Of a stretch of 64,000 nucleotides of DNA, positions 9,673 through 51,197 are shown piece after piece. Below the pieces are notes generated by a model, which made no database searches, was not told where the DNA came from, and saw nothing but the letters and a program-made list of their open reading frames with translations. Origin of the DNA: a virus; the IMG/VR virus record IMGVR_UViG_3300028559_002342, positions 1-64,000 of that record; one strand, given 5' to 3'. Every line of letters starts with the position of its first letter. The first letter of the stretch is position 1. A program made the position numbers and the translations under genes.

Positions 9673-10061
9673 GTCGTTTCAAGCTTAATAATCTCAACAA
9701 GATTCTTGATATCATAAGATGCAGAGCTCAAAGTCCTTTCAGATTTTTCAAGCAACTCAACTATTAATTCCAATTCTTTTATTCTGCAATCGATTTCTAT
9801 CACTTCACTGTGTTTCTCTGCTGTGCGCTCAATCACTGGCAAGGCCAATTTTACAGGGCTTTGTTCTTGTATTTTAACAACCAATTCCTTCTTTAGAAGT
9901 TCGCGTTTCTTGCGTAACCCGTTGATATCCATCTTGTGTCTGATTAATCGACCTGTCCATTTGTGCTTGATGCCAGGCAACTTGAGCTGATATTCCTTTA
10001 GAATTAATTCGTCAATCTTCAAATCATCTTGTAACTCATTTATGTAATCTTCTAGTAGCAT
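9669..10061 (-). CDS. uvsY: Recombination mediator UvsY
   Basis: Small helical protein (130 residues from the chosen start) matching the T4 UvsY type, which loads UvsX onto gp32-coated single-stranded DNA. It opens with LLEDYINELQDDLKID and a basic central helix, as in UvsY of T4-like phages. I chose the ATG at 10061. An in-frame ATG at 10097 would add 12 residues and run into the divergent gene at 10088. It overlaps uvsW by 4 bp. Identification rests on the N-terminal pattern, size and neighbourhood, since UvsY has no catalytic motif. Confidence 0.8.
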   Translation of the reverse strand: MLLEDYINELQDDLKIDELILKEYQLKLPGIKHKWTGRLIRHKMDINGLRKKRELLKKELVVKIQEQSPVKLALPVIERTAEKHSEVIEIDCRIKELELIVELLEKSERTLSSASYDIKNLVEIIKLETT

Positions 10062-10087
10062 TAACTTAAATAATAGTATAGAGTTAT

Positions 10088-10354
10088 ATGAAATCAATTA
10101 ATATATTTGAAGAAGCGTTTTTACAAGCGTTGAATGAAACCAATGTTGCTGGTGGCATAGGCAGCTTGTTTGGTGGGGGCATTCTGGATATAGGTGACAC
10201 AGCAGGAAAAGTGCCAGGATCACCCAATGATATCTATGCCCCAAATGATGCACGCATTCCAAAAATTTTGGGCATGGGGAAAAAGAAGAAAAAAGAAAAG
10301 ATGGGCATCATGCGCAGACCTCTCCCCGGGCTGGGCAAAGAAGTTGTAAATTAA
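10088..10354 (+). CDS. Small putative head-internal protein with capsid-targeting-like N-terminus
   Basis: An 88-residue protein of unknown function. The first 17 residues (MKSINIFEEAFLQALNE) form an amphipathic helix-like peptide ending in L-N-E before T, similar to T4 capsid-targeting peptides cut by gp21. The rest is Gly/Pro-rich with a Lys-rich stretch (GKKKKKEKMG) that could contact DNA. It is divergent from uvsY, with 26 bp between the two starts. No enzyme motif is visible. Packaging in the head is inference from the N-terminus alone. Confidence 0.7.
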   Translation: MKSINIFEEAFLQALNETNVAGGIGSLFGGGILDIGDTAGKVPGSPNDIYAPNDARIPKILGMGKKKKKEKMGIMRRPLPGLGKEVVN

Positions 10355-10374
10355 TATATTGCGCTAATTATAGT

Positions 10375-10788
10375 ATGGATTTAGGTCACTGGATTTTAAC
10401 TGAAGGTGTTTCTGTTGACATGGACACTTTTGGATTCATCTACGAAATAACAAATACAGTTAACGGGAAAAAATACATAGGAAAAAAACAATGCAAATCC
10501 AAGTTAAAAAGGAAGCCTTTGAAGGGAAAGAAGAACAAGAGAATAGAGATAAAGGAATCAGATTGGAAGGCATATACCAGCTCTTCTAATGACCTTAATG
10601 CAGATATTATAAAATATGGCAAAGACAAGTTCATATTCAAAATTTTAAGAAAATGCAATTCAAAATGGGAATTGGCTTATTTTGAGATCAAGCAACAACT
10701 TGATAGAGATGTGATTTTGAGAGATGATTACTATAATGGAATCATAAATGTCAGAATTGGAAGACCACCAAAGAATTTTCTTGAATAA
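10375..10788 (+). CDS. GIY-YIG domain protein with capsid-targeting-like N-terminus
   Basis: A 137-residue protein with a GIY-YIG nuclease N-terminal region: GFIYEITNTVNGKKYIGKKQ at about residues 19-38 gives the G(F)IY...YIG pair, followed by a Lys-rich stretch. No separate DNA-binding domain is seen, so a freestanding homing endonuclease of the usual length is unlikely. The first ten residues, MDLGHWILTE, precede a Gly and look like a gp21-type cleavage site (I-L-T-E / G). If so, it would be packaged in the head and injected. It stands 20 bp after the previous small gene on the same strand. Nuclease activity is inferred. Confidence 0.75.
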   Translation: MDLGHWILTEGVSVDMDTFGFIYEITNTVNGKKYIGKKQCKSKLKRKPLKGKKNKRIEIKESDWKAYTSSSNDLNADIIKYGKDKFIFKILRKCNSKWELAYFEIKQQLDRDVILRDDYYNGIINVRIGRPPKNFLE

Positions 10789-16836: not shown

Positions 16837-17484
16837 ATGGAATCGTTCAAGAAGTTCTATGACAAGCCTGTATTTGGCGTGAATGAATTCATTGATGTGG
16901 ATGGACTGGGTCGCATCAAAGCCAAGATAGATTCAGGCAATGAAGCATACAATGTGCTGCATGGTGTGGACATTTCTGAAGATGGTGAACACATCTCTTT
17001 TACAACTGTTGATAACAAGAAAATGAAAGCGCCTCGTGCCGGTGACATCAAGATTCACATTGGCAGTGGTGTCAAAGAAGACAGACCCATTGTGAAACTC
17101 AACATCAAGATCAATGGCAAGCAATACAAGGATGTGCCTTTCAGCATAGCAGATCGTTCTGAGAATGAAGATCCTATTCTGGTGGGTGAACCTTTTCTCA
17201 AGAAACTGAATGCAGTCATTGATGTGAACAAACAAGTGAATGAATCAGTGCGTTACAATGTGATTGCCATCAATAGGAAAGACCCTCTTTCCAAAGAGTG
17301 GATGCGTCCTAGTTTTTCTGAGAATGCCATTCGTCACATTGCCAACAAGCAGAAGACTTTGATTGTGAACCATCATGGAGGAGCCAAATTCAAGGGCAAA
17401 GATGTTCTTAAAATATACAACCCACAGACAAAAGAACCTTTCATAGTTTTTCGCAAGAAAAAGAAAGTAGATACAGATGGCTGA
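16837..17484 (+). CDS. Retropepsin-like aspartic protease (RimK-associated / Zn_protease type)
   Basis: A 215-residue protein related to the retropepsin-like family annotated as ATP-dependent zinc protease (PF05618). It has IKAKIDSGNEAYNVLHG near residues 25-41, where D-S-G takes the place of the D-T-G catalytic triad, and ILVGEPFLKKLNAVIDVN near 128-145, the conserved second half. Such domains often occur next to RimK-like ligases; none is seen here. The Lys-rich C-terminus overlaps the next appendage gene by 8 bp, suggesting coupled late expression and possibly a role in virion protein maturation. The start is fixed by the late box. Confidence 0.7.
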   Translation: MESFKKFYDKPVFGVNEFIDVDGLGRIKAKIDSGNEAYNVLHGVDISEDGEHISFTTVDNKKMKAPRAGDIKIHIGSGVKEDRPIVKLNIKINGKQYKDVPFSIADRSENEDPILVGEPFLKKLNAVIDVNKQVNESVRYNVIAINRKDPLSKEWMRPSFSENAIRHIANKQKTLIVNHHGGAKFKGKDVLKIYNPQTKEPFIVFRKKKKVDTDG

Positions 17485-18691
17485 TGTGACCATCTCTGAA
17501 TTGACTCCAGGTGCACCTGCTGACAATAACATCATACCCTACAGCACAGGTACTGATACACTGGGTGTGCCTGTGTCTGCCATGTTTCAAAACACATCAG
17601 TTATTAAGACTAACACCCTAGGGGGTCTGAATGGTCTGCAACTGTACACCAACAAGCTGACAAGAAAAAGTTTTTGGTTCATTGAGAAAACAATGGCCAC
17701 AACGGGACCTGGAGCAGGTCCCAATGCAGGTGATTGGACCAGTCTGGGCTACATCACACCCCCAGAATTTGGAACTGGATGGGGGAGAGAAATTAAAATA
17801 TTTGCCACCCATCACATCCCAGATTCTGTTAATTCTGTTACCTATCAGTTACATGATAGTTATAGAACTCGCTCGTTAACATATGCAGATTGGGTGAAGG
17901 TGCCCTCTGTGAGCAATTACAACTATTCCGCAAAACAGGATTTCAGTCTGGAAGCAAGAAGAACCAGAACAACAAATAGTTATTCTAATTTAGAATTGAG
18001 ATACAGGGCCATAGACCCTTCAGCTGCAGCTAGCACCTATGGTGGGAATGTGGCTTTTGCCATAGAAATTCTTGGAGGAGGTGAATTTTTCGAGACCACA
18101 GGTGGTGGCAATGATTTGACAGTGCCAGCAGGTTACCTGGGCAACACTTTTTATCAATTTCCCTTGAGAACATATGCTGATGACACGCATACATCATTTG
18201 AACCATCTACCAGGGGGTTGTTCATGGTGCAACCAGGCCGAGTGGGCATCAACACCATTGCCCCTGCAGCAACATTGGATGTGAATGGTGTCATAACAAC
18301 CAACACAGCACTGTTGTTTGACCGTACAGAAAAAACAGCCAATATAATGTCTGCAGGTGGCCCAGCTGGCGCATCAGGCATTGCAAATTTTAATGTGCTG
18401 GTCCAGCCCGGTGTTTGGACAACGATTGCAACAACATCATGGGGTGGGCAGGTGCAGGCAGCATTTGTTACAGAACCTAACACCACATACAATTTGCAAG
18501 GATTTCATATTGTGCCATGCTCTTATGGTGCAAGCAACAATGCACGCCTACCATCTTATACTGATAGCTTTGTGAATGCAGGTGGGTGGACACAATACAA
18601 CATTCAATGGAGATCCACTGGGTACAATTTGCAGGTCTATCACACTGGACCTGTGCCAATTAGATTCTGGGGAACGTTTAGCGGGGTATAG
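17477..18691 (+). CDS. Tail or appendage protein with MADxxI N-terminal module
   Basis: A 404-residue virion appendage protein. The N-terminus (MADVTISELTPGAP, then IIPYSTGTDTLGVPVSAMF) is the module shared with 11391 and 20293. The central part is beta-rich and contains a typical fibre segment, GRVGINTIAPAATLDVNGV, near residues 253-271. The C-terminal region is Trp/Tyr/Ser-rich (WTQYNIQWRSTGYNL), suited to glycan binding. It begins inside the protease-like gene, so it is translationally coupled to it. It is convergent with folE. It probably forms part of a tail fibre or head decoration. Confidence 0.75.
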   Translation: MADVTISELTPGAPADNNIIPYSTGTDTLGVPVSAMFQNTSVIKTNTLGGLNGLQLYTNKLTRKSFWFIEKTMATTGPGAGPNAGDWTSLGYITPPEFGTGWGREIKIFATHHIPDSVNSVTYQLHDSYRTRSLTYADWVKVPSVSNYNYSAKQDFSLEARRTRTTNSYSNLELRYRAIDPSAAASTYGGNVAFAIEILGGGEFFETTGGGNDLTVPAGYLGNTFYQFPLRTYADDTHTSFEPSTRGLFMVQPGRVGINTIAPAATLDVNGVITTNTALLFDRTEKTANIMSAGGPAGASGIANFNVLVQPGVWTTIATTSWGGQVQAAFVTEPNTTYNLQGFHIVPCSYGASNNARLPSYTDSFVNAGGWTQYNIQWRSTGYNLQVYHTGPVPIRFWGTFSGV

Positions 18692-18710
18692 AAAACTAAG
18701 ATTAGTTTTT
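18692..18710. terminator. Possible bidirectional terminator
   Basis: AAAACT, a 6-nt loop, AGTTTT and a T-run lie at the junction of two converging genes (an appendage gene and folE). The stem is short and A/T-only, so it is weak. Confidence 0.35.
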
Positions 18711-19349
18711 AATCTGCGCAAACTCCACAAACTTGTAAAACTCAGCTCGGGAATTGTCATTGTTATCCAAGAACGCACCAGACATTCTGGCTGTGCGCAT
18801 GGTGGAATCATGTCGGATGCCACGGTTGGAACAACATGTGTGATTGGCTTCAATCATGACTGCCACACCATTGTTCTTCTCACATACCAAATCAATGTGT
18901 GCATGAATTTGCATGGTGAGATTTTCTTGCACTTGTGGTCGACGGGCAAACCAATCCACCACACGATTGAGCTTGCTCAATCCAATGACTTTGCCTTCTT
19001 TGGAAGGAATATACGCCACATGGGCCACACCAGTGAAAGGTGCATGATGATGTGAACACAGTGAGGTCAATTTGATGTTGTTCTGACACACCATGCCATC
19101 ATATTGGTCAATGTTATCAAAGGCTGTGATCTTGGGTGGCTTGCTGTAGCAGCCCCATGCAAAGTCTTCTACAAAGGCCTTGGCCACGCGATGTGGGGTG
19201 TTGTCACTGTTGGGATCATTTCTCCAATCATACCCTAGTGCATCCATGTACATTTCATAAGCCTTGGATGCTCTTTGAATGATTTGATCTCTTTCTTCTT
19301 GTGTGTGAGGGTGATTGTGATTGGCAAAAGCAAGCTTTACATTGGACAT
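18702..19349 (-). CDS. folE: GTP cyclohydrolase I, FolE
   Basis: FolE converts GTP to 7,8-dihydroneopterin triphosphate, the first step of the 7-deazaguanine (queuosine/preQ0) and folate pathways. The 215 residues include the zinc-site region LCSHHHAPFTGVAHVAY near 105-121, IGLSKLNRVVDWFARR, and the second Cys region TCCSNRGIRHDS near 167-178. All expected catalytic segments are seen. Together with queD, queE, queF and dpdA in this window it supports phage-encoded synthesis of a modified guanine. A sigma70-like promoter sits 7 nt upstream, so it is probably expressed early. Confidence 0.93.
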   Translation of the reverse strand: MSNVKLAFANHNHPHTQEERDQIIQRASKAYEMYMDALGYDWRNDPNSDNTPHRVAKAFVEDFAWGCYSKPPKITAFDNIDQYDGMVCQNNIKLTSLCSHHHAPFTGVAHVAYIPSKEGKVIGLSKLNRVVDWFARRPQVQENLTMQIHAHIDLVCEKNNGVAVMIEANHTCCSNRGIRHDSTMRTARMSGAFLDNNDNSRAEFYKFVEFAQIKN

Positions 19350-23167: not shown

Positions 23168-23845
23168 ATGAAATATAGTAGTGCTAAGATCATTGAGTTG
23201 GGTAGTTGCGCATTTAGACAATGGAGGGCTGATAGTCATTGCAGATATATTCATGGATACAGATTGGTGGCTAAATTTTGGTTCAATTGCAATAATTTAG
23301 ATGCAAACAATTGGGTAGTAGATTTTGGTGGATTGAAAGAGTTGAAAGAAATATTAGAGAAGCAATTTGATCATACATTGTGTGTTGCAAGTGATGACCC
23401 TTTGTTAGAAGGCTTGCAATCATTGCATACAGCAGGTGGTTGTGATTTGAGAGTAATGCCAGATGGTGTGGGCATTGAGAAGACTGCAGAATGGTGTTTG
23501 AAGGCAGCAGATGCATTCATAAGACAACAGACAGGCAACCGTTGCTGGGTGGAGAAGGTGGAAGTGTGGGAACATGAGAAGAATTCAGCATTGATTACAA
23601 ATGAAATGGTGCAACCCATTGCTAGTGCTTATTCAATTGCAGAGCAAACTGTGCCCATAAGGCATGTTGAAAATTTCCTGGAAGAAGTGCACAAGGAAAC
23701 AGGTGTGAACGTTGCAGCTGTTCTGAAGCAAGCACCCATGGGTAGCAAACAACCACAACCTGCTGCTTTGAAGCCAGCAAATGTGGGCAGAAATGTGACC
23801 ACTGGTTATGGTAATTTGTTTGGTGGCACTTCATGGGGAAATTGA
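23168..23845 (+). CDS. queD: QueD-like 6-carboxytetrahydropterin synthase
   Basis: PTPS-family enzyme that would convert dihydroneopterin triphosphate to 6-carboxytetrahydropterin in preQ0 synthesis. Residues 13-29 include FRQWRADSHCRYIHGYR, where the usual HGH zinc motif reads HGY and the first His of FxAAH is missing, so the zinc site is altered. WVVDFGGLKELKEIL and QFDHTL are well conserved, as is the later VEKVEVWEHEKNSA. The C-terminal 60 residues form a Pro/Gly-rich tail not found in short QueD enzymes (about 120 aa). It is 225 residues long. A TGA is followed directly by an in-frame ORF. Confidence 0.85.
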   Translation: MKYSSAKIIELGSCAFRQWRADSHCRYIHGYRLVAKFWFNCNNLDANNWVVDFGGLKELKEILEKQFDHTLCVASDDPLLEGLQSLHTAGGCDLRVMPDGVGIEKTAEWCLKAADAFIRQQTGNRCWVEKVEVWEHEKNSALITNEMVQPIASAYSIAEQTVPIRHVENFLEEVHKETGVNVAAVLKQAPMGSKQPQPAALKPANVGRNVTTGYGNLFGGTSWGN

Positions 23846-24833: not shown

Positions 24834-25571
24834 TTGAGCGATAAGACTATATTTCTAAGTGATGACAAAATATTCTATACTTTAGAAGGTGAAGGTGAGT
24901 ATGTTGGGTGTCCTTCTGTGTTCATGCGCCTTTCCATGTGCAACTTGACATGCAAAGGGTTTGCATCTGCTGACTCTCCCAACGGTTGTGATAGTTTTAT
25001 TAGCTGGTCAGTTAAAAACAGAATGACGTTTGATGAAATTTTTGAATACATGTCCAGCAACAGGTACAACTGTTATCTCAAAGATGGTGCCATATGGAAG
25101 ATCACTGGTGGTGAACCTTTGATTCAACAGAATGCTTTACTTGAGCTTGTTGATCAATATATTTTCAGGTTTGGTTATGTGCCCAAGATTGATTTTGAAA
25201 CCAACGCGACCATTATGCCAGATCAGCAATGGCTTGATTGGAAGGCAACATTTACAACATCACCAAAATTGAGCAACAATGGTGATCCAGTTGAGAAGAG
25301 ATACAAGCCGGTGGTGTTAAAATGGCACGCAAAGAATCGATCAGGGTTCAAGTTTGTTGTGAATAGTGAGACGGAAGTGAGAGAAATATTGGAAAAATAT
25401 GTTTATGAATGTGGGGTACCTATGGATCGTATTTGGCTCATGCCTTGTTGTGGCAGCAGGGATGAACATACCGAAAATTGTCCTATTGTGGCAGAGTTTT
25501 GCAAAAAATATAACTTTAAATTTAGTCCAAGATTGCAGCTGGTGATCTGGAACAAAGCCTTGAAGGTTTGA
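24834..25571 (+). CDS. queE: QueE-like 7-carboxy-7-deazaguanine synthase (radical SAM)
   Basis: Radical SAM enzyme that forms CDG from carboxytetrahydropterin. The 245 residues open with FYTLEGEGEYVGCPSVFMR; the cluster region reads MCNLTCKGFASADSPNGCD, so the three cysteines are C-x3-C-x11-C instead of the usual C-x3-C-x2-C. A longer spacing is known in some QueE clades, from memory. ITGGEPL near residue 98 is the conserved SAM-binding GGEP motif, and FETNAT follows. The start is TTG. It lies between phoH and a kinase, with a weak TTGAAA / TATAAT pair upstream (14-nt spacer). Confidence 0.88.
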   Translation: MSDKTIFLSDDKIFYTLEGEGEYVGCPSVFMRLSMCNLTCKGFASADSPNGCDSFISWSVKNRMTFDEIFEYMSSNRYNCYLKDGAIWKITGGEPLIQQNALLELVDQYIFRFGYVPKIDFETNATIMPDQQWLDWKATFTTSPKLSNNGDPVEKRYKPVVLKWHAKNRSGFKFVVNSETEVREILEKYVYECGVPMDRIWLMPCCGSRDEHTENCPIVAEFCKKYNFKFSPRLQLVIWNKALKV

Positions 25572-32897: not shown

Positions 32898-33942
32898 TAA
32901 TTTAATTCTGCCTGTTGCCGGCAAGTCATCCCGATTTCCAAACATGAGGCCAAAGTGGATGCTCACACATCCCAATGGCAATTTTATGCTCATAGAAGCT
33001 CTCAAGGGGTTAAATCTTAAGAAATTTAATAAAATTTATGTTATTATTCTTAAGAAGCATTTAGATGAATATAACTTTGAAAGTGGCTTGCGGCAGCAAT
33101 TCAAAGGCATTGGCATTAGCAATATTAACCTTGTGGCTCTTGCAAATGAAACAGAATCACAAGCTCAAACAGTGTATGAGGGAATTTTAAAAGGTAAGAT
33201 ATCTGGCAGCATATGCATCAAGGATTGTGATAATTATTTTTCTTTTGACCATAATTTAGAGAATTTTATATCTGTGGAGCATCTCTCAAGTTTTAATGAA
33301 ATTAACCCATCCAATAAAAGCTATGTGCAGACAAATGAGCTGGGACATGTTGTGAATATTGCTGAAAAACAAATAATAAGCAATATATTTTGCACCGGTT
33401 GTTATGGGTTTAGTTCATCTGAAGATTTTAAAAAATACTTCTTACTTTTAAAAGATAAAAAAGATTTGTACATATCTCACATTGTTTACAAAATGATTCT
33501 TGATGGTATTATTTTCAGGGCGTTCAAGTGCAGTAATTATTTGGACTGGGGTACCAAGACAGAATGGGACAAATACAGATCACAATATAAAACATTTTTT
33601 ATAGATTTAGATGGAGTTTTGGTTGAAAATGGATCGGAGCATTTTGATCCTAAATGGGGCCAAACCAATGTCATTAAAAATAATGCAGAGCTTATTCGCA
33701 ATCTCTATTCGTCTGGTAAAGTGCAGATTATTATAACCACTTCCAGAAAATCATATTTTAAGAAGCAAATTATTAAAGAATTAAAACAAAAAAATATTCC
33801 CTACCATCAACTTGTATTAGATCTATTACATGCTAAACGTATCCTAATCAACGACTTTTCTTGTACAAATAAGTATCCAACTAGCATTTCAATTAATATT
33901 CCTAGAAATAGTGATACATTAGATAACTTTATAACCTCATGA
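32890..33942 (+). CDS. Sugar nucleotidyltransferase fused to a HAD phosphatase
   Basis: A 350-residue fusion. Residues 1-225 are an NTP-transferase domain: LILPVAGKSSRFPNMRPKWM (residues 5-24) carries the G-x-S-x-R nucleotide loop and the Lys. From about 235 a HAD domain starts, FFIDLDGVLVENG (DxD motif I), with ITTSRKSYF as motif II and LINDF as motif IV. The fusion would make an NDP-sugar or NDP-alcohol and remove a phosphate from an intermediate. It follows the kinase at 32094, so the two may form a short activation route for one glycan building block. Confidence 0.8.
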   Translation: MNSNLILPVAGKSSRFPNMRPKWMLTHPNGNFMLIEALKGLNLKKFNKIYVIILKKHLDEYNFESGLRQQFKGIGISNINLVALANETESQAQTVYEGILKGKISGSICIKDCDNYFSFDHNLENFISVEHLSSFNEINPSNKSYVQTNELGHVVNIAEKQIISNIFCTGCYGFSSSEDFKKYFLLLKDKKDLYISHIVYKMILDGIIFRAFKCSNYLDWGTKTEWDKYRSQYKTFFIDLDGVLVENGSEHFDPKWGQTNVIKNNAELIRNLYSSGKVQIIITTSRKSYFKKQIIKELKQKNIPYHQLVLDLLHAKRILINDFSCTNKYPTSISINIPRNSDTLDNFITS

Positions 33943-34784
33943 AAATATTATTCTCTCTCACGGTGCACGATTTTTTTCCGTTCTTAAAAGAACAAATAGA
34001 CAACATTTTAAAATTTAATAATGACTGCATAGTTTTAATACATGTAAATAAAGAAAGAGAAATTACTAGTGAAGAGCAGTGCATATTTGACGAAATACTT
34101 AAAGATGAAAGAATCATTTTTAACATTAACAGAGTTGTCTCTTATAATTACAAGGTACATCTCCCTCAAATAGCAAACGTATTATTTGCAAAGGCAATAC
34201 AGTATGACTATTTAGTTATGCTGGCATCTAATGAAATGTTTTTTAGAAGAGGATGTGTAGATTATATAAAAAAATATGATGCAGGTTGTGGTATTAATAT
34301 TGCAACCGAAATGCATGATGGCATGGATTGTGCGATTGCACTAAAACAATTTTTAAATGGTCATAATGTCTACAACGGGCAACATGAAGGTACTTTCTAT
34401 AAAAAGCATATAATAGAGCAAGTAGTAGATAGAATATTAGCATTTAAAGCTAAGGAAGAATTACATTCATTAAAGGGTACAGTCGAGGAATGGGTATTTC
34501 AAACTGCTTTACACAATTTATTTAAAGATATTAAGATAGGATATCCTATCACTATTCTTAGAGATAGGGCTCCAGGCTTACTAGAAGCAGATGTTGAAAG
34601 AGGAATAAGCAAGGTAGAGCAGTTTATAGCAGAATTAAGATCTAATGGAGAAGTGAATAGTACTTATGTACTACAAACTCCTATTAAGAGTATATTCTCC
34701 ATAAAACGAGTTTCTAGAAATTACGGAAAAGATTATCATGATGCTATTAATAAGTTCTTGAAAAATTTAAATCCTAATATATAA
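33939..34784 (+). CDS. GT14-like putative glycosyltransferase
   Basis: A 281-residue protein resembling the core-2/I-branching GT14 fold. It has FSLTVHDFFPFLKEQIDNIL at the start, NINRVVSYNYKVHLPQIAN near residues 63-81, and YLVMLASNEMFFRRGCVDYI near 91-110, equivalent to the LSGxDxPL region. The acceptor end is not clear, and some conserved residues differ, so assignment is tentative. It ends the glycan operon, 7 bp before the DUF366 gene, which has its own promoter. Confidence 0.55.
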   Translation: MKILFSLTVHDFFPFLKEQIDNILKFNNDCIVLIHVNKEREITSEEQCIFDEILKDERIIFNINRVVSYNYKVHLPQIANVLFAKAIQYDYLVMLASNEMFFRRGCVDYIKKYDAGCGINIATEMHDGMDCAIALKQFLNGHNVYNGQHEGTFYKKHIIEQVVDRILAFKAKEELHSLKGTVEEWVFQTALHNLFKDIKIGYPITILRDRAPGLLEADVERGISKVEQFIAELRSNGEVNSTYVLQTPIKSIFSIKRVSRNYGKDYHDAINKFLKNLNPNI

Positions 34785-34785
34785 T
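34758..34785 (+). promoter_or_regulatory. sigma70-like promoter for the DUF366 gene
   Basis: TTGAAA (34758-34763), a 16-nt spacer and TATAAT (34780-34785) stand exactly 6 nt before the ATG at 34792. This is one of the best promoters in the window. It lies at the end of the glycan operon and could uncouple DUF366 and genes 62 and 31 from it. Confidence 0.65.
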
Positions 34786-34791
34786 CAATTT

Positions 34792-35379
34792 ATGATTATT
34801 TCTGACATTAAAACATACGACGGGACATTATTACACTCTAGATTTGCATATAAATTTTTTAGAGAAAAGACATTGCCCATTGGCAACATCATTGCTTTTA
34901 GAGCTCCAATGAAAGTGGAGGTGGAGGGAATGATAGACCGTGAAGATGTTTTAAACAACGACTACATATACAGTGATGATGCAATTAATTTTCTCTGGGA
35001 GATACCTTATCTGGATGCATTTGGTGCAGTAGCTTACCAGCGTCTCCTCAATACGCAAATTGCAAATATTTTAAGTGTAAAATATCTGAACGCACCCATT
35101 GAAGTAAATGGTGATGACCTCATTGTGCACAAGGAACATATGCAAGGTGGTGTGACACAGGCCAAAGGCAAATGCAGTGTCAGTATCACATACACCAAGA
35201 ATGGTGTTGCTTTGGGTCATACCGGAATCAATATCAATGCAGGAAAGAAAGCTCCAGCATTTGCCTTCTCAACTAATCTAACTGATGACCAAGCAAAAAT
35301 GTTTATGCAAGAGGTAATCAATTTGTTCTATGCAATGAATGATGATATCTTTATTGCCACCTCTAAAGTTATCAGTTAA
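34792..35379 (+). CDS. DUF366 family protein (candidate DpdL)
   Basis: A 195-residue DUF366 (PF04017) protein. The family pattern is visible along its length: TYDGTLLHSRFAYKFFREK, GNIIAFRAPMKVEVEGMIDR (a GDsIV-FRGP-VDxEDV-like segment), DDAINFLWEIPYLD, YQRLLNTQI, VNGDDLIV and KCSVSITYT. From memory, DUF366 in some phages was proposed to be DpdL, a 7-carboxy-7-deazaguanine decarboxylase giving 7-deazaguanine. With folE, queD, queE and dpdA here, that role is attractive. The function is not proven, and QueF with a formyltransferase would give another product. It overlaps gene 62 by 1 bp. Confidence 0.8.
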   Translation: MIISDIKTYDGTLLHSRFAYKFFREKTLPIGNIIAFRAPMKVEVEGMIDREDVLNNDYIYSDDAINFLWEIPYLDAFGAVAYQRLLNTQIANILSVKYLNAPIEVNGDDLIVHKEHMQGGVTQAKGKCSVSITYTKNGVALGHTGININAGKKAPAFAFSTNLTDDQAKMFMQEVINLFYAMNDDIFIATSKVIS

Positions 35380-35753
35380 TGACAATATTTGATTTTATCT
35401 CAAACATACTCTTTACCAAGAAACATAATAATATTGATTTGGATGATGAGACAGAGTTTACTCCATTCATTGTCAACAGATGGTTGAGCATGTATTCACC
35501 ACAAGTAGCAAGTGTCTGCAATGATATAAACAAATATTATAGCATTTTTGACAACAAGCAGGATTTGTATAAGCTTTTTTTTGGCATAGTTCCAAAGGTG
35601 CCTTCCAAGAAAATAACTTATTTCAAGAGAATAAAAGAAACAAAGGATCAATCCAATACTGATACCTTGAAGCTCATGGCAAAAACACGCGAACTTTCGT
35701 TAAGAGAGATCAAAGAGTACGTTGAATTATGCAATGATGTAACTAAATCATAA
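35379..35753 (+). CDS. 62: Clamp-loader small subunit (T4 gp62-like)
   Basis: A 124-residue protein fitting the short form of gp62 seen in marine T4-like phages. EFTPFIVNRWLSMYSPQVAS near residues 27-46 is the best block, followed by DNKQDLYKLFFGIVPK and KITYFKR. It joins gp44 to load the sliding clamp gp45; neither gp44 nor gp45 is in this window. T4 gp62 is longer (187), so this is a minimal version. It overlaps DUF366 by 1 bp and precedes the cochaperonin-like gene by 1 bp. Confidence 0.7.
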   Translation: MTIFDFISNILFTKKHNNIDLDDETEFTPFIVNRWLSMYSPQVASVCNDINKYYSIFDNKQDLYKLFFGIVPKVPSKKITYFKRIKETKDQSNTDTLKLMAKTRELSLREIKEYVELCNDVTKS

Positions 35754-35754
35754 T

Positions 35755-36216
35755 ATGCCTGCAGACATTGAATCATTGCCTGTACAGAAAAGTGTCATTG
35801 ACTTTTCAGAACTACCCAAAAATTCATTTAATTCAGTATTCTATGGTTATAACCTCAAAGCTGTTCTTGATGATGTTTTGCTAGTAAAACATGTCGATGA
35901 GACTGAAGATGGTACATCTATCATGAGAAACGGTATTGTTGTTCCAGTTAATGCTGATACCAAGGCTTGGCGCATTGGTGAAGTGATACTTGTGGGTCCC
36001 AACGCTAAATATGTAAAACTGGGTGATCATGTCTGTTTTCCAAACAACCTAGGTGTGCCTGTAGCCAATCTTGACATTGATGGCTATGGAACACTCAAGA
36101 AAGGTCTATTCTTAAATGAGCAACGTATTTTCGGCATCTGTTCAATAAGAAATGATAATGAAAGTGTCGCTTCCCACATTAAAAAATCTTCTGTTAAGCA
36201 ACGTAGCAGAGATTAA
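35755..36216 (+). CDS. 31: GroES/gp31-like cochaperonin
   Basis: A 153-residue protein with a GroES-like barrel. DDVLLVKHVDETEDGTSIMR near residues 39-58, GIVVPVNADTKAWRIGEVIL near 61-80, VKLGDHVCFPNN, and a C-terminal strand match the co-chaperonin outline, including the mobile-loop position. In T4, gp31 replaces GroES so that GroEL can fold the major capsid protein gp23. It may do that here. The C-terminal 20 residues are a charged extension. It overlaps the next gene by 65 bp if that gene starts at 36152. Confidence 0.7.
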   Translation: MPADIESLPVQKSVIDFSELPKNSFNSVFYGYNLKAVLDDVLLVKHVDETEDGTSIMRNGIVVPVNADTKAWRIGEVILVGPNAKYVKLGDHVCFPNNLGVPVANLDIDGYGTLKKGLFLNEQRIFGICSIRNDNESVASHIKKSSVKQRSRD

Positions 36217-46655: not shown

Positions 46656-47576
46656 TTACTGACGAACTGTTTTGGTAAAGTACTTGTACTTGTCCCACAT
46701 GGCACTATTTTGTGCCAGCAGCTCCTGACTACTGGCACGGATAGGATTGATGTCAATACCGCCACGACGCACATACATGCATGCCACCATCAACTCTTCT
46801 GGCTTGGTCAAATCATGCAACCGCTTGTATATGGTTTCACATATTTCTTCATGAAAATGGCATTCATCACGGAATGAAACTATGTATTGCAACAAAGAGG
46901 TTTGATTGAGTTCACATGGTCCTTTATAATGAATGTAAACATCACCCCAATCTGGTTGGGATGTGACCCTGCAATTGCTCTTTAACAGGGCTGAATGAAA
47001 TCGTTGCACCTTGTTTGTGTCACTGTGCATCCATCCAAGTAATGCAGGATCTTCTTTATAGCCTCTGGATTTGATGGACGTCACATCAATGTTATTCTCC
47101 AGTGTAGGATATGCAGCACTTGGAAACAAGGGTGGATAGTGCATTGCATCATCAACAGCTTTGGTAAGGCGTACATAGACCTGCACATCAGTTTCTAATA
47201 GAGTGGATAGATCCTTGGCAATCACCTGTTCCAGTTGCTGCAAAGCACTCACTATGTTGCCACTGTATTTCTCCATGTTGAAAGAATTCATGTACAGCTT
47301 GATGGATTTGGACTCCACAATGTATTTGTTGGTTGCAGGATACACAATCTTGGCAATGGCAGCAATGGGCATGCCGTCAGTTGTCAAACAAGACACTTCA
47401 TAAGCATTCCAAATGTCATACCCCACAAAGGGTGGTGCATCATCAGATATGTGCAGATGCTTGCGATTGTTGGCTCTGGGTTCACGCACCAACAGAGAAG
47501 GATCATAGGTGCACTTGTAGCCTGTTATTTTACCCAAATGTTTTGATATGTTACTGTTATCTAATTCCGTATTCAT
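46656..47576 (-). CDS. queF: QueF, NADPH-dependent preQ0 reductase (long form)
   Basis: Reduces preQ0 (nitrile) to preQ1 (aminomethyl) with NADPH. The 306 residues are of the E. coli long type (282): the QueF motif ESKSIKLYMNSFN at 88-100, the catalytic Cys202 in LLKSNCRVTSQPDWG, and VSFRDECHFHEEICE with a late YVRRGGIDINPIR. All essential parts are intact. It is the last gene of the dpdA operon, overlapping the kinase gene by 20 bp. Its presence implies that preQ1-type bases can be made, although no QueC is found in the window. Confidence 0.95.
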   Translation of the reverse strand: MNTELDNSNISKHLGKITGYKCTYDPSLLVREPRANNRKHLHISDDAPPFVGYDIWNAYEVSCLTTDGMPIAAIAKIVYPATNKYIVESKSIKLYMNSFNMEKYSGNIVSALQQLEQVIAKDLSTLLETDVQVYVRLTKAVDDAMHYPPLFPSAAYPTLENNIDVTSIKSRGYKEDPALLGWMHSDTNKVQRFHSALLKSNCRVTSQPDWGDVYIHYKGPCELNQTSLLQYIVSFRDECHFHEEICETIYKRLHDLTKPEELMVACMYVRRGGIDINPIRASSQELLAQNSAMWDKYKYFTKTVRQ

Positions 47577-48135
47577 TAAGTTTTATTTTAATTGCTTGCA
47601 TGCGTTCTTCCACTGTTCCTTTTAAAATAGTTATTTTTCCTTTTAACCGCTCATCCTTAAGCCAGCAATTTTCATATGAATCAATAATTGCATCCCTGAA
47701 TTCTTTATTTGTACTTCTCTCACCATCATCCTCCAGAGGCACATCATGAGGACTTGGATAAAAGATATGATCATATCTGTGAATATGATTCACATAGTAC
47801 ATGAGACCCAGACTATTTGATACAGGAAAATCTTTTGGCTTATTATAAGCAAAGTAACTCGTATAGATCATGCCATCCATCAGGCAGCGATCATGCAGTG
47901 TACCCTCGAACTTGCTCAACTTGTAATTGAACATCAAATTCTCAAATTCTTTATTCAATATTAGAGTTTGAGTCACATCATTTGCTCCTGACTCATTCAT
48001 ATCAACCCCATACTCGCGGCTAATCAATCTTGTGACTTCATCCACATACCATAACTTGGAACCATAGAACAGTTTGCACTCCTTGAGCAGAGTAGTCTTG
48101 CCTGAACACTGAGGACCTGTGAAAGTGAATATCAT
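47557..48135 (-). CDS. NadR-like P-loop kinase
   Basis: A 192-residue P-loop protein: Walker A GPQCSGKTTLLKE near residues 7-19, LHDRCLMDGMIYTSYF near 80-95, and the family signature HDVPLEDDGERSTNKEFRDA near 129-148 (D-x-P-x-x-x-D-G-x-R). This is typical of the NadR C-terminal (AAA_28) ribosylnicotinamide-kinase domain, and of deoxynucleotide kinases annotated in T4-like phages. The substrate is not certain. It is within the 7-deazaguanine operon, overlapping queF and the small gene at 48132. Confidence 0.75.
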   Translation of the reverse strand: MIFTFTGPQCSGKTTLLKECKLFYGSKLWYVDEVTRLISREYGVDMNESGANDVTQTLILNKEFENLMFNYKLSKFEGTLHDRCLMDGMIYTSYFAYNKPKDFPVSNSLGLMYYVNHIHRYDHIFYPSPHDVPLEDDGERSTNKEFRDAIIDSYENCWLKDERLKGKITILKGTVEERMQAIKIKLNEYGIR

Positions 48136-48504: not shown

Positions 48505-48852
48505 TCATTTGCCCCATTTGCCATTATACACTATTTCTGCAATAATGCCATACACTGCAGAATCTCTGAATGCATCCATGACTGGCTCATTGGCAGAGTT
48601 CATGTCTTTTTTCTTCAAGACCAAATTGATCAATCGCTGTATCTTGTCATTGAGTCGCACCACAACTGCAGATATGGCAGCAAATATGTCCTCTTGTTTG
48701 ACTAAATCTGAACCCAGAGAAATATTTCCTGGACCGTAATCAAATTGCTTTCTGCAAAACGTTTCATATAGCTCTGCCTGTATCTTGTGAAACTCTTTAC
48801 ACGTTTCCGGGAAATTTTTTTCCACGTACTTGATGGCATCATCCTTATTCAC
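48505..48852 (-). CDS. DUF1599 / Nmad1 nucleotide-modification-associated protein
   Basis: A 115-residue helical protein of the DUF1599 (Nucleotide modification associated domain 1) type. FCRKQFDYGPGNISLGSDLV near residues 32-51 and RLNDKIQRLINLVLK near 71-85 match the family, then DAFRDSAVYGIIAEIVYNGK at the end. The fold is MazG-like from memory, and predicted roles involve modified nucleotides. The position between GMP reductase and a small membrane protein, in the dpdA operon, supports a link to base modification. It overlaps guaC by 4 bp. Confidence 0.75.
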   Translation of the reverse strand: MNKDDAIKYVEKNFPETCKEFHKIQAELYETFCRKQFDYGPGNISLGSDLVKQEDIFAAISAVVVRLNDKIQRLINLVLKKKDMNSANEPVMDAFRDSAVYGIIAEIVYNGKWGK

Positions 48853-49820
48853 AATCGTACTCCATGAGATACTTTATTTAAATTTAAAGCACCCAGATTG
48901 CAACCACCTGCATAACTAATAGCGCTCTGCAAGTCTTGCCTTATCTCTTCCATTTTTTCAAGATATGTGAAGGCATCCGTGTCCATGAGCTTCATTGTAC
49001 CTTCAATATTCTTTTTTTCAATCTTATTGTGTGCACTGGCTGATCCAAAGTACTGTTTGTAGCGTCTGCCATTTGCATCCTTTACAAGCGGTGCCGGGCT
49101 GTCTGAACATGCAGCAAATATGGAACCGCACATCACCATGCTGGCACCTGCCACAAGAGCTTTGGCAATATCACCATTGCAGCGCACACCGCCATCTGCA
49201 ATGATGGGTATGTCTCTATCCCTGGCGCACTCTATGATGCAACTAAACATGGGGTATGTAAACCCTGTCTTATCTTTGGTTGTGCAGGCATACCCACCAC
49301 CAACGCCCACCTTCACTGCATCTGCACCTGCACTGTGCAAGTATTCAACACCTGTGAAAGTAGCAACATTACCAGCAATAATTTTTGTATCTGGTAGGCT
49401 CTGCTTGATGTGTTTGATCTGATCAGCAACCTTGGAGTGATGACCATGAGCCACATCTATGGTGATAAAATCAACACGAAGATGCCGATTAGCCAATTCA
49501 GTAATGATGGTAGCATCCTTGGATTGTGTGCCAACACTAATAGAGATGGTCTTGAGATCACCCATCCAGGCTCTGTTGTTGGCATCTTCAACAAACTTAA
49601 CGATATCAACATTAAACCGATGCATGATGTAAAAATAATTGTCCTGATCCAGCATTTTGCAAATATCAAAATCAATGCAGCACTTCATGTTGGCTGGTAC
49701 CACAGGTAGCTTGAACCGCTTGCCACAAAGCATCACATCTGTATCAATTTCAGCTCTGGATTGAATGGAATTAAAATTCGGTTTGAGAAAAATATTCCCA
49801 TAGTGTAGAGATATGTCCAT
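48849..49820 (-). CDS. guaC: GMP reductase (GuaC)
   Basis: NADPH-dependent enzyme converting GMP to IMP. The 323 residues match short bacterial GMP reductases: GKRFKLPVVPANMKCCIDFD near residues 33-52, YFYIMHRF, ITIDVAHGHH, IIAGNVATF, and the catalytic loop VKVGVGGGYACTTK with Cys near residue 175, then FGSASAHNKIEKKNIEG near 256-272. The ATG at 49820 is chosen because it directly follows the formyltransferase stop; a longer frame to 49904 would overlap that gene. In this operon it may help handle guanine nucleotides from base exchange. Confidence 0.9.
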   Translation of the reverse strand: MDISLHYGNIFLKPNFNSIQSRAEIDTDVMLCGKRFKLPVVPANMKCCIDFDICKMLDQDNYFYIMHRFNVDIVKFVEDANNRAWMGDLKTISISVGTQSKDATIITELANRHLRVDFITIDVAHGHHSKVADQIKHIKQSLPDTKIIAGNVATFTGVEYLHSAGADAVKVGVGGGYACTTKDKTGFTYPMFSCIIECARDRDIPIIADGGVRCNGDIAKALVAGASMVMCGSIFAACSDSPAPLVKDANGRRYKQYFGSASAHNKIEKKNIEGTMKLMDTDAFTYLEKMEEIRQDLQSAISYAGGCNLGALNLNKVSHGVRL

Positions 49821-49821
49821 G

Positions 49822-50394
49822 TTACTGTTCAAGAATTCTAAACGCAGTAAAGAAACTCTTCCAAAGATCCAGTGCAGTGACACGCAGGGCACCATACACC
49901 TCACTTAACGTCTTATTTTTTATATCTATGCCTTGACTCATTAGTATTTCTCCTTCATCCACCCCTGGTGTGACTCTGTGAATAACACAACCAGCCACAT
50001 CATATCCCTCTGTAAAAGCTCTCTGTTGTGGATTGAACCCCTTCAATGAGGGAAATTTATCAATGAGCCCTGGATGTAAATTATAGATTTCATATTTTTC
50101 ACATATTTGTTTAGGAATAATTCTCAGATAGCCATGCAGTGTTACAATCGGATTATTATACCTGGATAAAACATTCTCATAATTTACCACACTTGGTTTG
50201 GGTGGCAAATGCTGCCAGCAATGCATCATGTTGAGCTTGGTTGCCCTGAAAGTGGTCAACTCAACAAGCTTCTGATTAACGCCATCATTGTCGTGTTTGT
50301 TGTGCACAACACAATCAGGATAGACACCAAGTGCATTACTGAGATCATATATCTCAGTGCCCGTTTGCGAGAAAAATGTTACCCAAGGTCTCAT
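49822..50394 (-). CDS. dpdN: PurN-like formyltransferase (candidate DpdN)
   Basis: A 190-residue formyltransferase-fold protein. The catalytic triad is visible at positions like those of PurN: N105 and H107 in YNLHPGLIDKFPSLKG, and D146 in TPGVDEGEIL, with H139 in GCVIHRV. LHGYLRIIP near residue 86 is also typical. A PurN role is possible, but the ATGA overlap with dpdA makes it a good candidate for DpdN, a dPreQ1 formyltransferase predicted from work on phage 7-deazaguanines (from memory). The formyl donor would be N10-formyl-THF. Function is inferred from fold and position. Confidence 0.8.
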   Translation of the reverse strand: MRPWVTFFSQTGTEIYDLSNALGVYPDCVVHNKHDNDGVNQKLVELTTFRATKLNMMHCWQHLPPKPSVVNYENVLSRYNNPIVTLHGYLRIIPKQICEKYEIYNLHPGLIDKFPSLKGFNPQQRAFTEGYDVAGCVIHRVTPGVDEGEILMSQGIDIKNKTLSEVYGALRVTALDLWKSFFTAFRILEQ

Positions 50395-51197
50395 CTGCGA
50401 ATAATCTTCTTAAACATTGTAGTATTATATTTTACAAGATCAAGTTGATCATCAGTGAAGATATGTTCAATCAAGTCGGCTAGCTTTGTTGCAGGCTTGC
50501 TCTGCAAGCCATAATCTGCATCATATTTTAACCCATTGATGGCTGCAACAATGGGGTTGCTGGTATCACAACTTACAATGTTGTAGATATTTTTATCCAC
50601 ATAAAATCTAAATTCTTTAGCTAGAGAGCATCCCAGCAGGTGATGTGGTTTGTTCCATTCCCAAATTCCTGACTCAATTAAATCTGTAATAAATCTTTGT
50701 CTACCAGAACAAAACCGCTCCAGTTCTGTATTGCCCTCTCCAATGGCTTGATAGTAACTAAAGTCAAAGCTTATTGCAATCATGTCAGCTTCATATGACA
50801 TGAAACGATAGCAATTCTTTAATTCCTGCCAACATTTGCCTTGCACTGCACCTATGGATTTTGTTAAAAAAGAGCTTTGCAGGTCTTTGGCTTTGTCTCT
50901 GAACCCCAGGTAGCTGACCATAGTCTCTTGTGAGTTCTCCAGAACATCTGGTATGATGAACATGTTGGGCTGCAGATCTTTAGCAGCTTCATAAAACATC
51001 TGTGGGTCAAAGGACTTGCCAAGTTCAAATATTGAGTTGTCGAGTAGCACTTCTCTGTTGTATACATGTCTGGCAGACTTGAAGTAATTGTAATAATCTG
51101 GATAACGTTCAAATAGATGCACTAATGCATAGTCAAAATCATTGTATGACTTGGATGCAGGTAATATGGATAAGGGAGATTCGTGGGATACTTTCAT
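50391..51197 (-). CDS. dpdA: DpdA-like DNA guanine transglycosylase
   Basis: A 268-residue TGT-like protein of the phage DpdA type, which exchanges guanine in DNA for a 7-deazaguanine. LLDNSIFELG (residues 51-60) stands at the place of the DSGGFQ motif of TGT, IIPDVLENS at 81-89, and HHLLGCS at 185-191. SCDTSNP at 209-215 supplies a candidate nucleophile Asp211. It is shorter than tRNA TGT (about 375), as expected for a phage DpdA subfamily. It heads the operon dpdA, formyltransferase, guaC, Nmad1, two small genes, kinase, queF. Subfamily assignment needs a tree. Confidence 0.85.
   Translation of the reverse strand: MKVSHESPLSILPASKSYNDFDYALVHLFERYPDYYNYFKSARHVYNREVLLDNSIFELGKSFDPQMFYEAAKDLQPNMFIIPDVLENSQETMVSYLGFRDKAKDLQSSFLTKSIGAVQGKCWQELKNCYRFMSYEADMIAISFDFSYYQAIGEGNTELERFCSGRQRFITDLIESGIWEWNKPHHLLGCSLAKEFRFYVDKNIYNIVSCDTSNPIVAAINGLKYDADYGLQSKPATKLADLIEHIFTDDQLDLVKYNTTMFKKIIRR

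Follow-up and report, generated by a model that had tools for sequence, protein, structure and literature searches.

A DUF366 protein of a T4-like phage belongs to a QueC-linked family and is a probable accessory of preQ0 synthesis

The data show a genetic tie of DUF366 to QueC, QueE and QueD in bacteria; in phages, several lineages show such a tie to QueC. The DUF366 protein described here, encoded by a T4-like phage, is probably a so far uncharacterised enzyme that assists preQ0 synthesis beside QueC, upstream of the point at which the pathway splits. Its gene was found in a window of 64,000 nucleotides (the term denotes the whole stretch of DNA that was analysed) and no other DUF366 match was obtained in the 66,674-base virus record containing it. 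The portal and major head proteins of the source contig match PHROG phage families. The features of the window that bear on the argument are as follows:

18702..19349, minus strand: FolE, GTP cyclohydrolase I (PF01227, E 6.2e-48)
23168..23845, plus strand: QueD (PF01242, E 3.6e-16; phrog_2389, E 1.6e-36)
24834..25571, plus strand: QueE (phrog_2076, E 1.6e-41)
34758..34785, plus strand: promoter TTGAAA-N16-TATAAT in a leaderless layout (11/12 consensus matches)
34792..35379, plus strand: gene of the 195-aa DUF366 protein, of a QueC-linked family with a predicted biotin/lipoate-ligase fold (PF04017, E 2.5e-23)
35379..35753, plus strand: T4 gene 62-like clamp-loader small subunit, near DUF366 in relatives as well (phrog_225, E 1.6e-8)
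35755..36216, plus strand: GroES-like (gp31-like) co-chaperonin (PF00166, E 4.2e-5; phrog_3188, E 1e-5)
46656..47576, minus strand: QueF, long form (PF14819 and PF14489; TIGR03138 at 263 bits, under the cut-off of 293)
47557..48135, minus strand: thymidylate-kinase-like protein of the dpdA operon (phrog_2107, E 2.5e-18)
48849..49904, minus strand: GMP reductase / IMPDH-like protein (PF00478; NF003966 at 339 bits, cut-off 344)
49822..50394, minus strand: formyltransferase, which we take to be DpdN-like (PF00551, E 8.3e-17)
50391..51197, minus strand: DpdA, a relative of the immuto and CP220 proteins (phrog_19058, E 5.3e-51)

The reading frame at 34792-35379 is intact, with an ATG start and 195 codons, and its product matches Pfam family PF04017 over practically its full length (residues 3-193; 83 bits against a curated cut-off of 29.9). 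Together with the matches of the partner genes, this confirms that DUF366 occurs together with QueF and a DpdN-like enzyme in one phage, as the initial annotation had it. Glycosyltransferase genes (GT2, GT25, GT11, GT6 and GT4) lie upstream, the gene immediately preceding DUF366 (33939-34784) giving no family match in the Pfam and PHROG scans; downstream, the DUF366 stop codon overlaps the ATG of the gene 62-like clamp-loader gene (TAATG). The dpdA operon is located on the opposite strand at a distance of about 15 kb, with its QueF end 11 kb away, in agreement with the earlier description of a gene between glycan genes and gene 62, apart from that operon. The near-consensus leaderless promoter then assigned to DUF366 was also recovered: its TATAAT ends at 34785, six bases ahead of the ATG. 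Promoter-like sites in the region were not above chance (5 found, 4.6 expected). An exact TATAAT at positions -22 to -5 recurred in 96 of 152 distinct upstream sequences from the window and its phage relatives, against 8 of 152 after each had been shuffled once.

The window DpdA is a homologue of the immuto/CP220 subfamily, sharing 43% identity with DpdA ('DNA guanine transglycosylase') from Flavobacterium phage immuto and 44% with the homologues of Campylobacter phages CP220/CP21. The dpd operon of immuto resembles that of the window in that DpdA is followed by a formyltransferase, a thymidylate kinase and QueF, with QueC found elsewhere in the genome; it differs in that immuto gave no DUF366 match above the cut-off, nor did phages phiST, S-TIM5 and CP220. 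As immuto possesses QueC, DpdA, QueF and the formyltransferase without DUF366, the latter is not needed for that set. The dpdA/formyltransferase/QueF operon of the window also encloses the GMP-reductase-like gene; in other phages, relatives of this gene follow DUF366 on its downstream side at a distance of about 6.5-8 kb. QueC was not found in the 66,674-base record. In longer relatives it is present, outside the stretch matching the record, and 11 of 12 long DUF366 contigs carry QueC, DpdA and QueF; the simplest explanation of the gap is thus the position of the contig end.

In cells, DUF366 is for the most part located in the preQ0 operon. A genome scan using two short patterns returned 64 DUF366 loci, distributed over Vampirovibrio, Gastranaerophilales, Deltaproteobacteria, a Clostridiales MAG, Eisenbacteria, Thermococci and an Altiarchaeales archaeon. 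In one small phylum DUF366 was present in 44 of 46 genomes, and 30 loci were obtained from it; the two genomes lacking DUF366, whose assemblies may be incomplete, gave no QueC match in one case and only a match at E 3e-5 in the other. Across 94 cell loci (two genomes counted twice), a conserved operon arrangement was found in 75: queC immediately precedes DUF366 on the same strand (within 250 bp) in 71 and queE immediately follows it in 25, although the loci are not independent, with 43 of the 71 queC neighbours being Gastranaerophilales-like, 23 from one phylum and 5 from others. Neither neighbour was observed in the remaining 19 loci, Vampirovibrio and Thermococci among them. Gene orders include queD-queC-DUF366-queE and, in a single case, queD-queC-DUF366-queE-folE; for one such operon the identities of QueD, QueC and the radical SAM protein were confirmed by Pfam. 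The place between queC and queE raises the idea that DUF366 replaces QueD, which was rejected because queD shares the operon in several loci and the phages have a QueD of their own. Replacement of QueC or QueF was likewise rejected as a general rule, both being present in most genomes tested.

At a bar of E<=1e-30, chosen by us, QueC was found in 28 of 31 DUF366 genomes, a subset of the 64, comprising all 23 bacteria and five of eight archaea. The other three archaeal genomes, possibly incomplete, contain short weak matches that pass the Pfam cut-off. This low cut-off was passed by 32 of 33 genomes, several via short matches resembling other ATP pyrophosphatases, and one genome without DUF366 also passes it via short weak matches. 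QueF was over its cut-off in 19 of the 23 bacteria and in none of the eight archaea. Thus, with QueC kept and QueF present in most of the bacteria and in none of the archaea, DUF366 goes with QueC whatever the later fate of preQ0. As a separate observation, a phosphatase gene directly precedes DUF366 in six Thermococci loci (L484, L485, L486, L487, L489 and L492); in L485, the one scanned, it is MDP-1-like, and the phosphatase is a possible partner of DUF366 in archaea.

In phages, one scan for relatives gave 72 DUF366 loci, and a profile scan gave at least 560 matching coding stretches, which came from two patterns and therefore represent fewer contigs. Across 225 phage loci, some contigs being counted twice, a gene 62 relative was located no more than 3 kb from DUF366 in 219 and no more than 60 bp away in 178. 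In 31 of the 225, belonging to several phage lineages, QueC was located upstream at a distance of at most 3 kb; for 163 of the loci 3 kb of upstream sequence was available. One lineage displays the order QueC, class II glutamine-amidotransferase-like protein, glycosyltransferase-like protein, DUF366, gene 62; the glycosyltransferase-like protein is below the Pfam cut-off, as is the amidotransferase-like protein in L070, its counterpart in L049, from another lineage, being above. The separate amidotransferase-like gene after QueC (L070:5744-8493 and L049:5855-9209) looks as if a fused Gat-QueC had been split. In seven contigs read in long stretches QueC and DUF366 are 33-42 kb (six) or 113 kb (one) apart; here DUF366 adjoins gene 62, and the link to QueC is one of presence, not of adjacency. 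The contig of L055 contains two DUF366 genes about 7 kb apart (10001-10582 and 17127-17708), only the second of which adjoins gene 62.

A search of 54 DUF366 phage contigs, picked mainly by length from those found and mostly fragments, revealed QueC in 29, DpdA of the window type in 25 and QueF in 28. Among the 12 contigs of at least 120 kb, 11 carry all three together, QueF in G032 and G033 being under the Pfam cut-off and clear with our own QueF profile. The twelfth, G034 (130 kb), has DUF366, FolE, QueD and QueE, with QueC, DpdA and QueF not found in the part searched; synteny would put QueC past the end of the contig, though the position of DpdA varies. A 94-kb contig with DUF366 (G049) gave no match to FolE, QueD, QueE, QueC, QueF or DpdA. 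Eight contigs of a further lineage (lineage b; G035-G038, G050, G051, G053 and G054; fragments of 33-68 kb) contain QueC and gave no match to the window type of DpdA or to QueF.

The QueC proteins adjacent to DUF366 were compared at the YxQxHxxE motif given for QueC in PMC13329287. In the bacterial proteins the histidine is absent from 66 of 67 distinct resolved sequences (two unresolved), and Ala, Ser or Val takes its place (L435-L483, L504-L533). Conversely, it is kept in 45 of 47 QueC sequences of DUF366 phages (two unresolved) and in six of seven plasmid QueCs (picked from 25 of 243 matching records). Compensation by DUF366 for an altered QueC is consequently not a general explanation, as the phage and plasmid proteins mostly keep the histidine.

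The literature search returned no paper on the function of the DUF366 family (PF04017/COG2029, PH1033/2ddz), and no activity is shown for any DUF366 in the literature searched; the main text of the 2026 QueC paper does not contain 'DUF'. An AF2 model built from 102 sequences (pLDDT 95.1, pTM 0.91) has its best structural match in 2ddz, an unannotated structure of the same family from Pyrococcus horikoshii (Z 22.8 over 179 residues, 25% identity). The next matches are to BPL/BirA (Z 12-13), LipB (11.7) and LplA (11.3) over 145-167 residues, and Foldseek returned LipL1 at E 2.6e-7. The predicted model thus has the fold of the BPL/LplA/LipB superfamily, which does not by itself prove a common function with these ligases. 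The PF03099 profile gave no match to the window protein at E 0.001 and only 12.4 bits, under the cut-off of 21, with a bacterial DUF366. The phage proteins group in a single clade (support 100/100), separate from the cellular members, to which they are 28-36% identical in the alignment and from which they differ by a longer loop between GDD and K127. In the tree one Vampirovibrio sequence (L491) carries the archaeal label, so the count for that label is too high, while the phage clade is unaffected. Within 60 relatives of at least 80% identity the synonymous distance was below 3 in only two, with nonsynonymous distances of about 0.1 among the comparisons listed; these values are read only as purifying selection.

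The ATP/phosphate loop of the ligases has the motif GRGRxG. This loop is absent from the window protein, a single 195-residue domain, and at its position an acidic motif, D49-x-E51-D52, is conserved in 98-100% of the 102 sequences. The invariant or nearly invariant polar residues are D49, E51, D52, E70, Q83, K127 (102/102), S131, H143, N147 and K192, and no conserved cysteine of the LipB type is present in the alignment. The window protein keeps all columns that are invariant in the family alignment, and this set is shared by the phage and the cellular proteins. In weak hhalign alignments with a single BirA and a single LipB (E about 0.1), GDD109 pairs with PND176 and K127 with K183 of the KWPND-K region of BirA, whereas in LipB the HGLALN stretch is the part close to H143/N147. 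By this comparison a BirA-like Asp-Lys pair seems to be kept in DUF366.

QueC is the enzyme that consumes CDG. As DUF366 is found beside QueC in bacteria that keep QueF, its main job is unlikely to be the destruction of the QueC substrate, and we therefore assign it to the QueC step or to the stage immediately preceding it. Its fold and residues suggest binding of CDG, or of the pterin precursor of CDG, through the carboxylate: the ligand would be a carboxylated compound with a 2-amino-4-oxo ring, Lys127 and Asp109 would by analogy with BirA hold the carboxylate end, and the D49/E51/D52 motif would read the guanine-like edge. DUF366 would assist the conversion of CDG to preQ0 by QueC, and with CDG or its precursor as ligand it may help QueC, or carry, transfer or sense the compound. 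In the window phage it would then feed a single line, in which preQ0 is reduced to preQ1 by QueF, inserted by DpdA and formylated; from gene content, one line ending in formylated preQ1 would be the simplest product, and a second base would not be required. A more specific version is offered as a conjecture that is more likely wrong than right: DUF366 may be an unrecognised extra preQ0-pathway enzyme common to bacteria, archaea and T4-like phages, a biotin-ligase-fold protein whose ATP loop is replaced by an acidic motif that reads the base; CDG would be handled as an acyl compound and passed to QueC or joined to a carrier. The probabilities that we attach to the best explanation and its rivals overlap and add up to slightly more than one.

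The same position in the pathway would suit a non-catalytic sensor or carrier of CDG or preQ0 that tunes the flux, a role that overlaps with the preferred one in place though not in kind. The missing GRGRxG loop, the accessory and patchy distribution and the place in the operon are all consistent with it, but the many invariant or nearly invariant polar residues suggest chemistry, and we regard a purely non-catalytic protein as unlikely. The fold would also suit a BirA/LplA-like ligase or transferase that attaches CDG, or biotin or lipoate, to a carrier or a protein, a reading that merges into the best explanation if the substrate is CDG. The weakly aligned Asp-Lys pair (BirA D176/K183) argues in the same direction, and defence systems are reported, in PMC13279940 and PMC13329287, in which relatives of QueC attach deazaguanine to proteins. 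However, DUF366 has the acidic DxED motif instead of the GRGRxG loop and lacks a conserved LipB-type cysteine, and no candidate acceptor protein was seen beside DUF366. Such a coupling activity appears rather improbable.

DpdL, reportedly a predicted CDG decarboxylase, had been proposed as the identity of DUF366 in the initial annotation. DUF366 would in that case convert CDG to 7-deazaguanine, and the phage would carry both dDG and formyl-dPreQ1. The proteins would be alike in acting on CDG in a DpdA phage: the fold is of a carboxylate-binding kind, CDG is at hand since QueE is present, the phages carry DUF366 with QueE and DpdA, and G034 combines QueE and DUF366, QueC not being found in the part searched. 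DUF366 nevertheless travels with QueC and QueF. A branch leaving before QueC should, by our reasoning, be marked by QueE and DpdA without QueC or QueF, a context different from that of the 11 long contigs in which QueC, DpdA and QueF occur together; likewise, bacteria with QueC, and mostly with QueF, keep DUF366 in the preQ0 operon, where destruction of CDG would make little sense. Moreover, DpdL would have been described from named phages. A tblastn search of 50,697 named phage records with four DUF366 queries (two phage, one bacterial and one archaeal; E limit 1e-5 for the first and 1 for the others) gave a single match, in 'Microcystis phage MaAM05' (MW495066.1, 96417-136878, L074). The genes annotated over these 40 kb are bacterial, and the DUF366 encoded there shares 99-100% identity with that of Vampirovibrio genomes, so the record is probably a mislabelled bacterial contig. 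PHROGs contained no family matching the four phage DUF366 proteins scanned. With MaAM05 as the only named match and no PHROGs family, it is doubtful, judging from these searches, that DUF366 corresponds to any protein known from phage isolates, although these searches could miss a very distant relative. We therefore consider the decarboxylase assignment improbable. The conflict that had been seen between a DpdL branch and a QueF branch is not supported by the data, as DUF366 and QueF occur together in 19 of 23 bacteria as well as in 11 of 12 long phage contigs, and their coexistence is usual and not a paradox. Of the two options offered at the time, the linkage to QueC favours another job for DUF366 over two modified bases in one phage.

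That the phage protein is instead a replication accessory of gene 62, unrelated to deazaguanine, as the proximity in the phage loci and the stop/start overlap in the window might suggest, is very unlikely given that phage and cellular proteins have their invariant residues in common, that several phage lineages have QueC a short way upstream and that QueC, DpdA and QueF accompany DUF366 in the long contigs, a survey which covered DUF366 phages, where linkage may also be by common descent.

The preQ0 pathway (FolE, QueD, QueE, QueC) is, to our knowledge, taught as complete. An extra gene kept in the preQ0 operon of several bacterial groups, found in archaea and common in contigs of T4-like phages points to an unknown step, a helper or a form of control. 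Fold and operon context together narrow the candidate ligands of DUF366 to a short list, and there is no longer a seeming paradox of one phage with two base modifications in competition.
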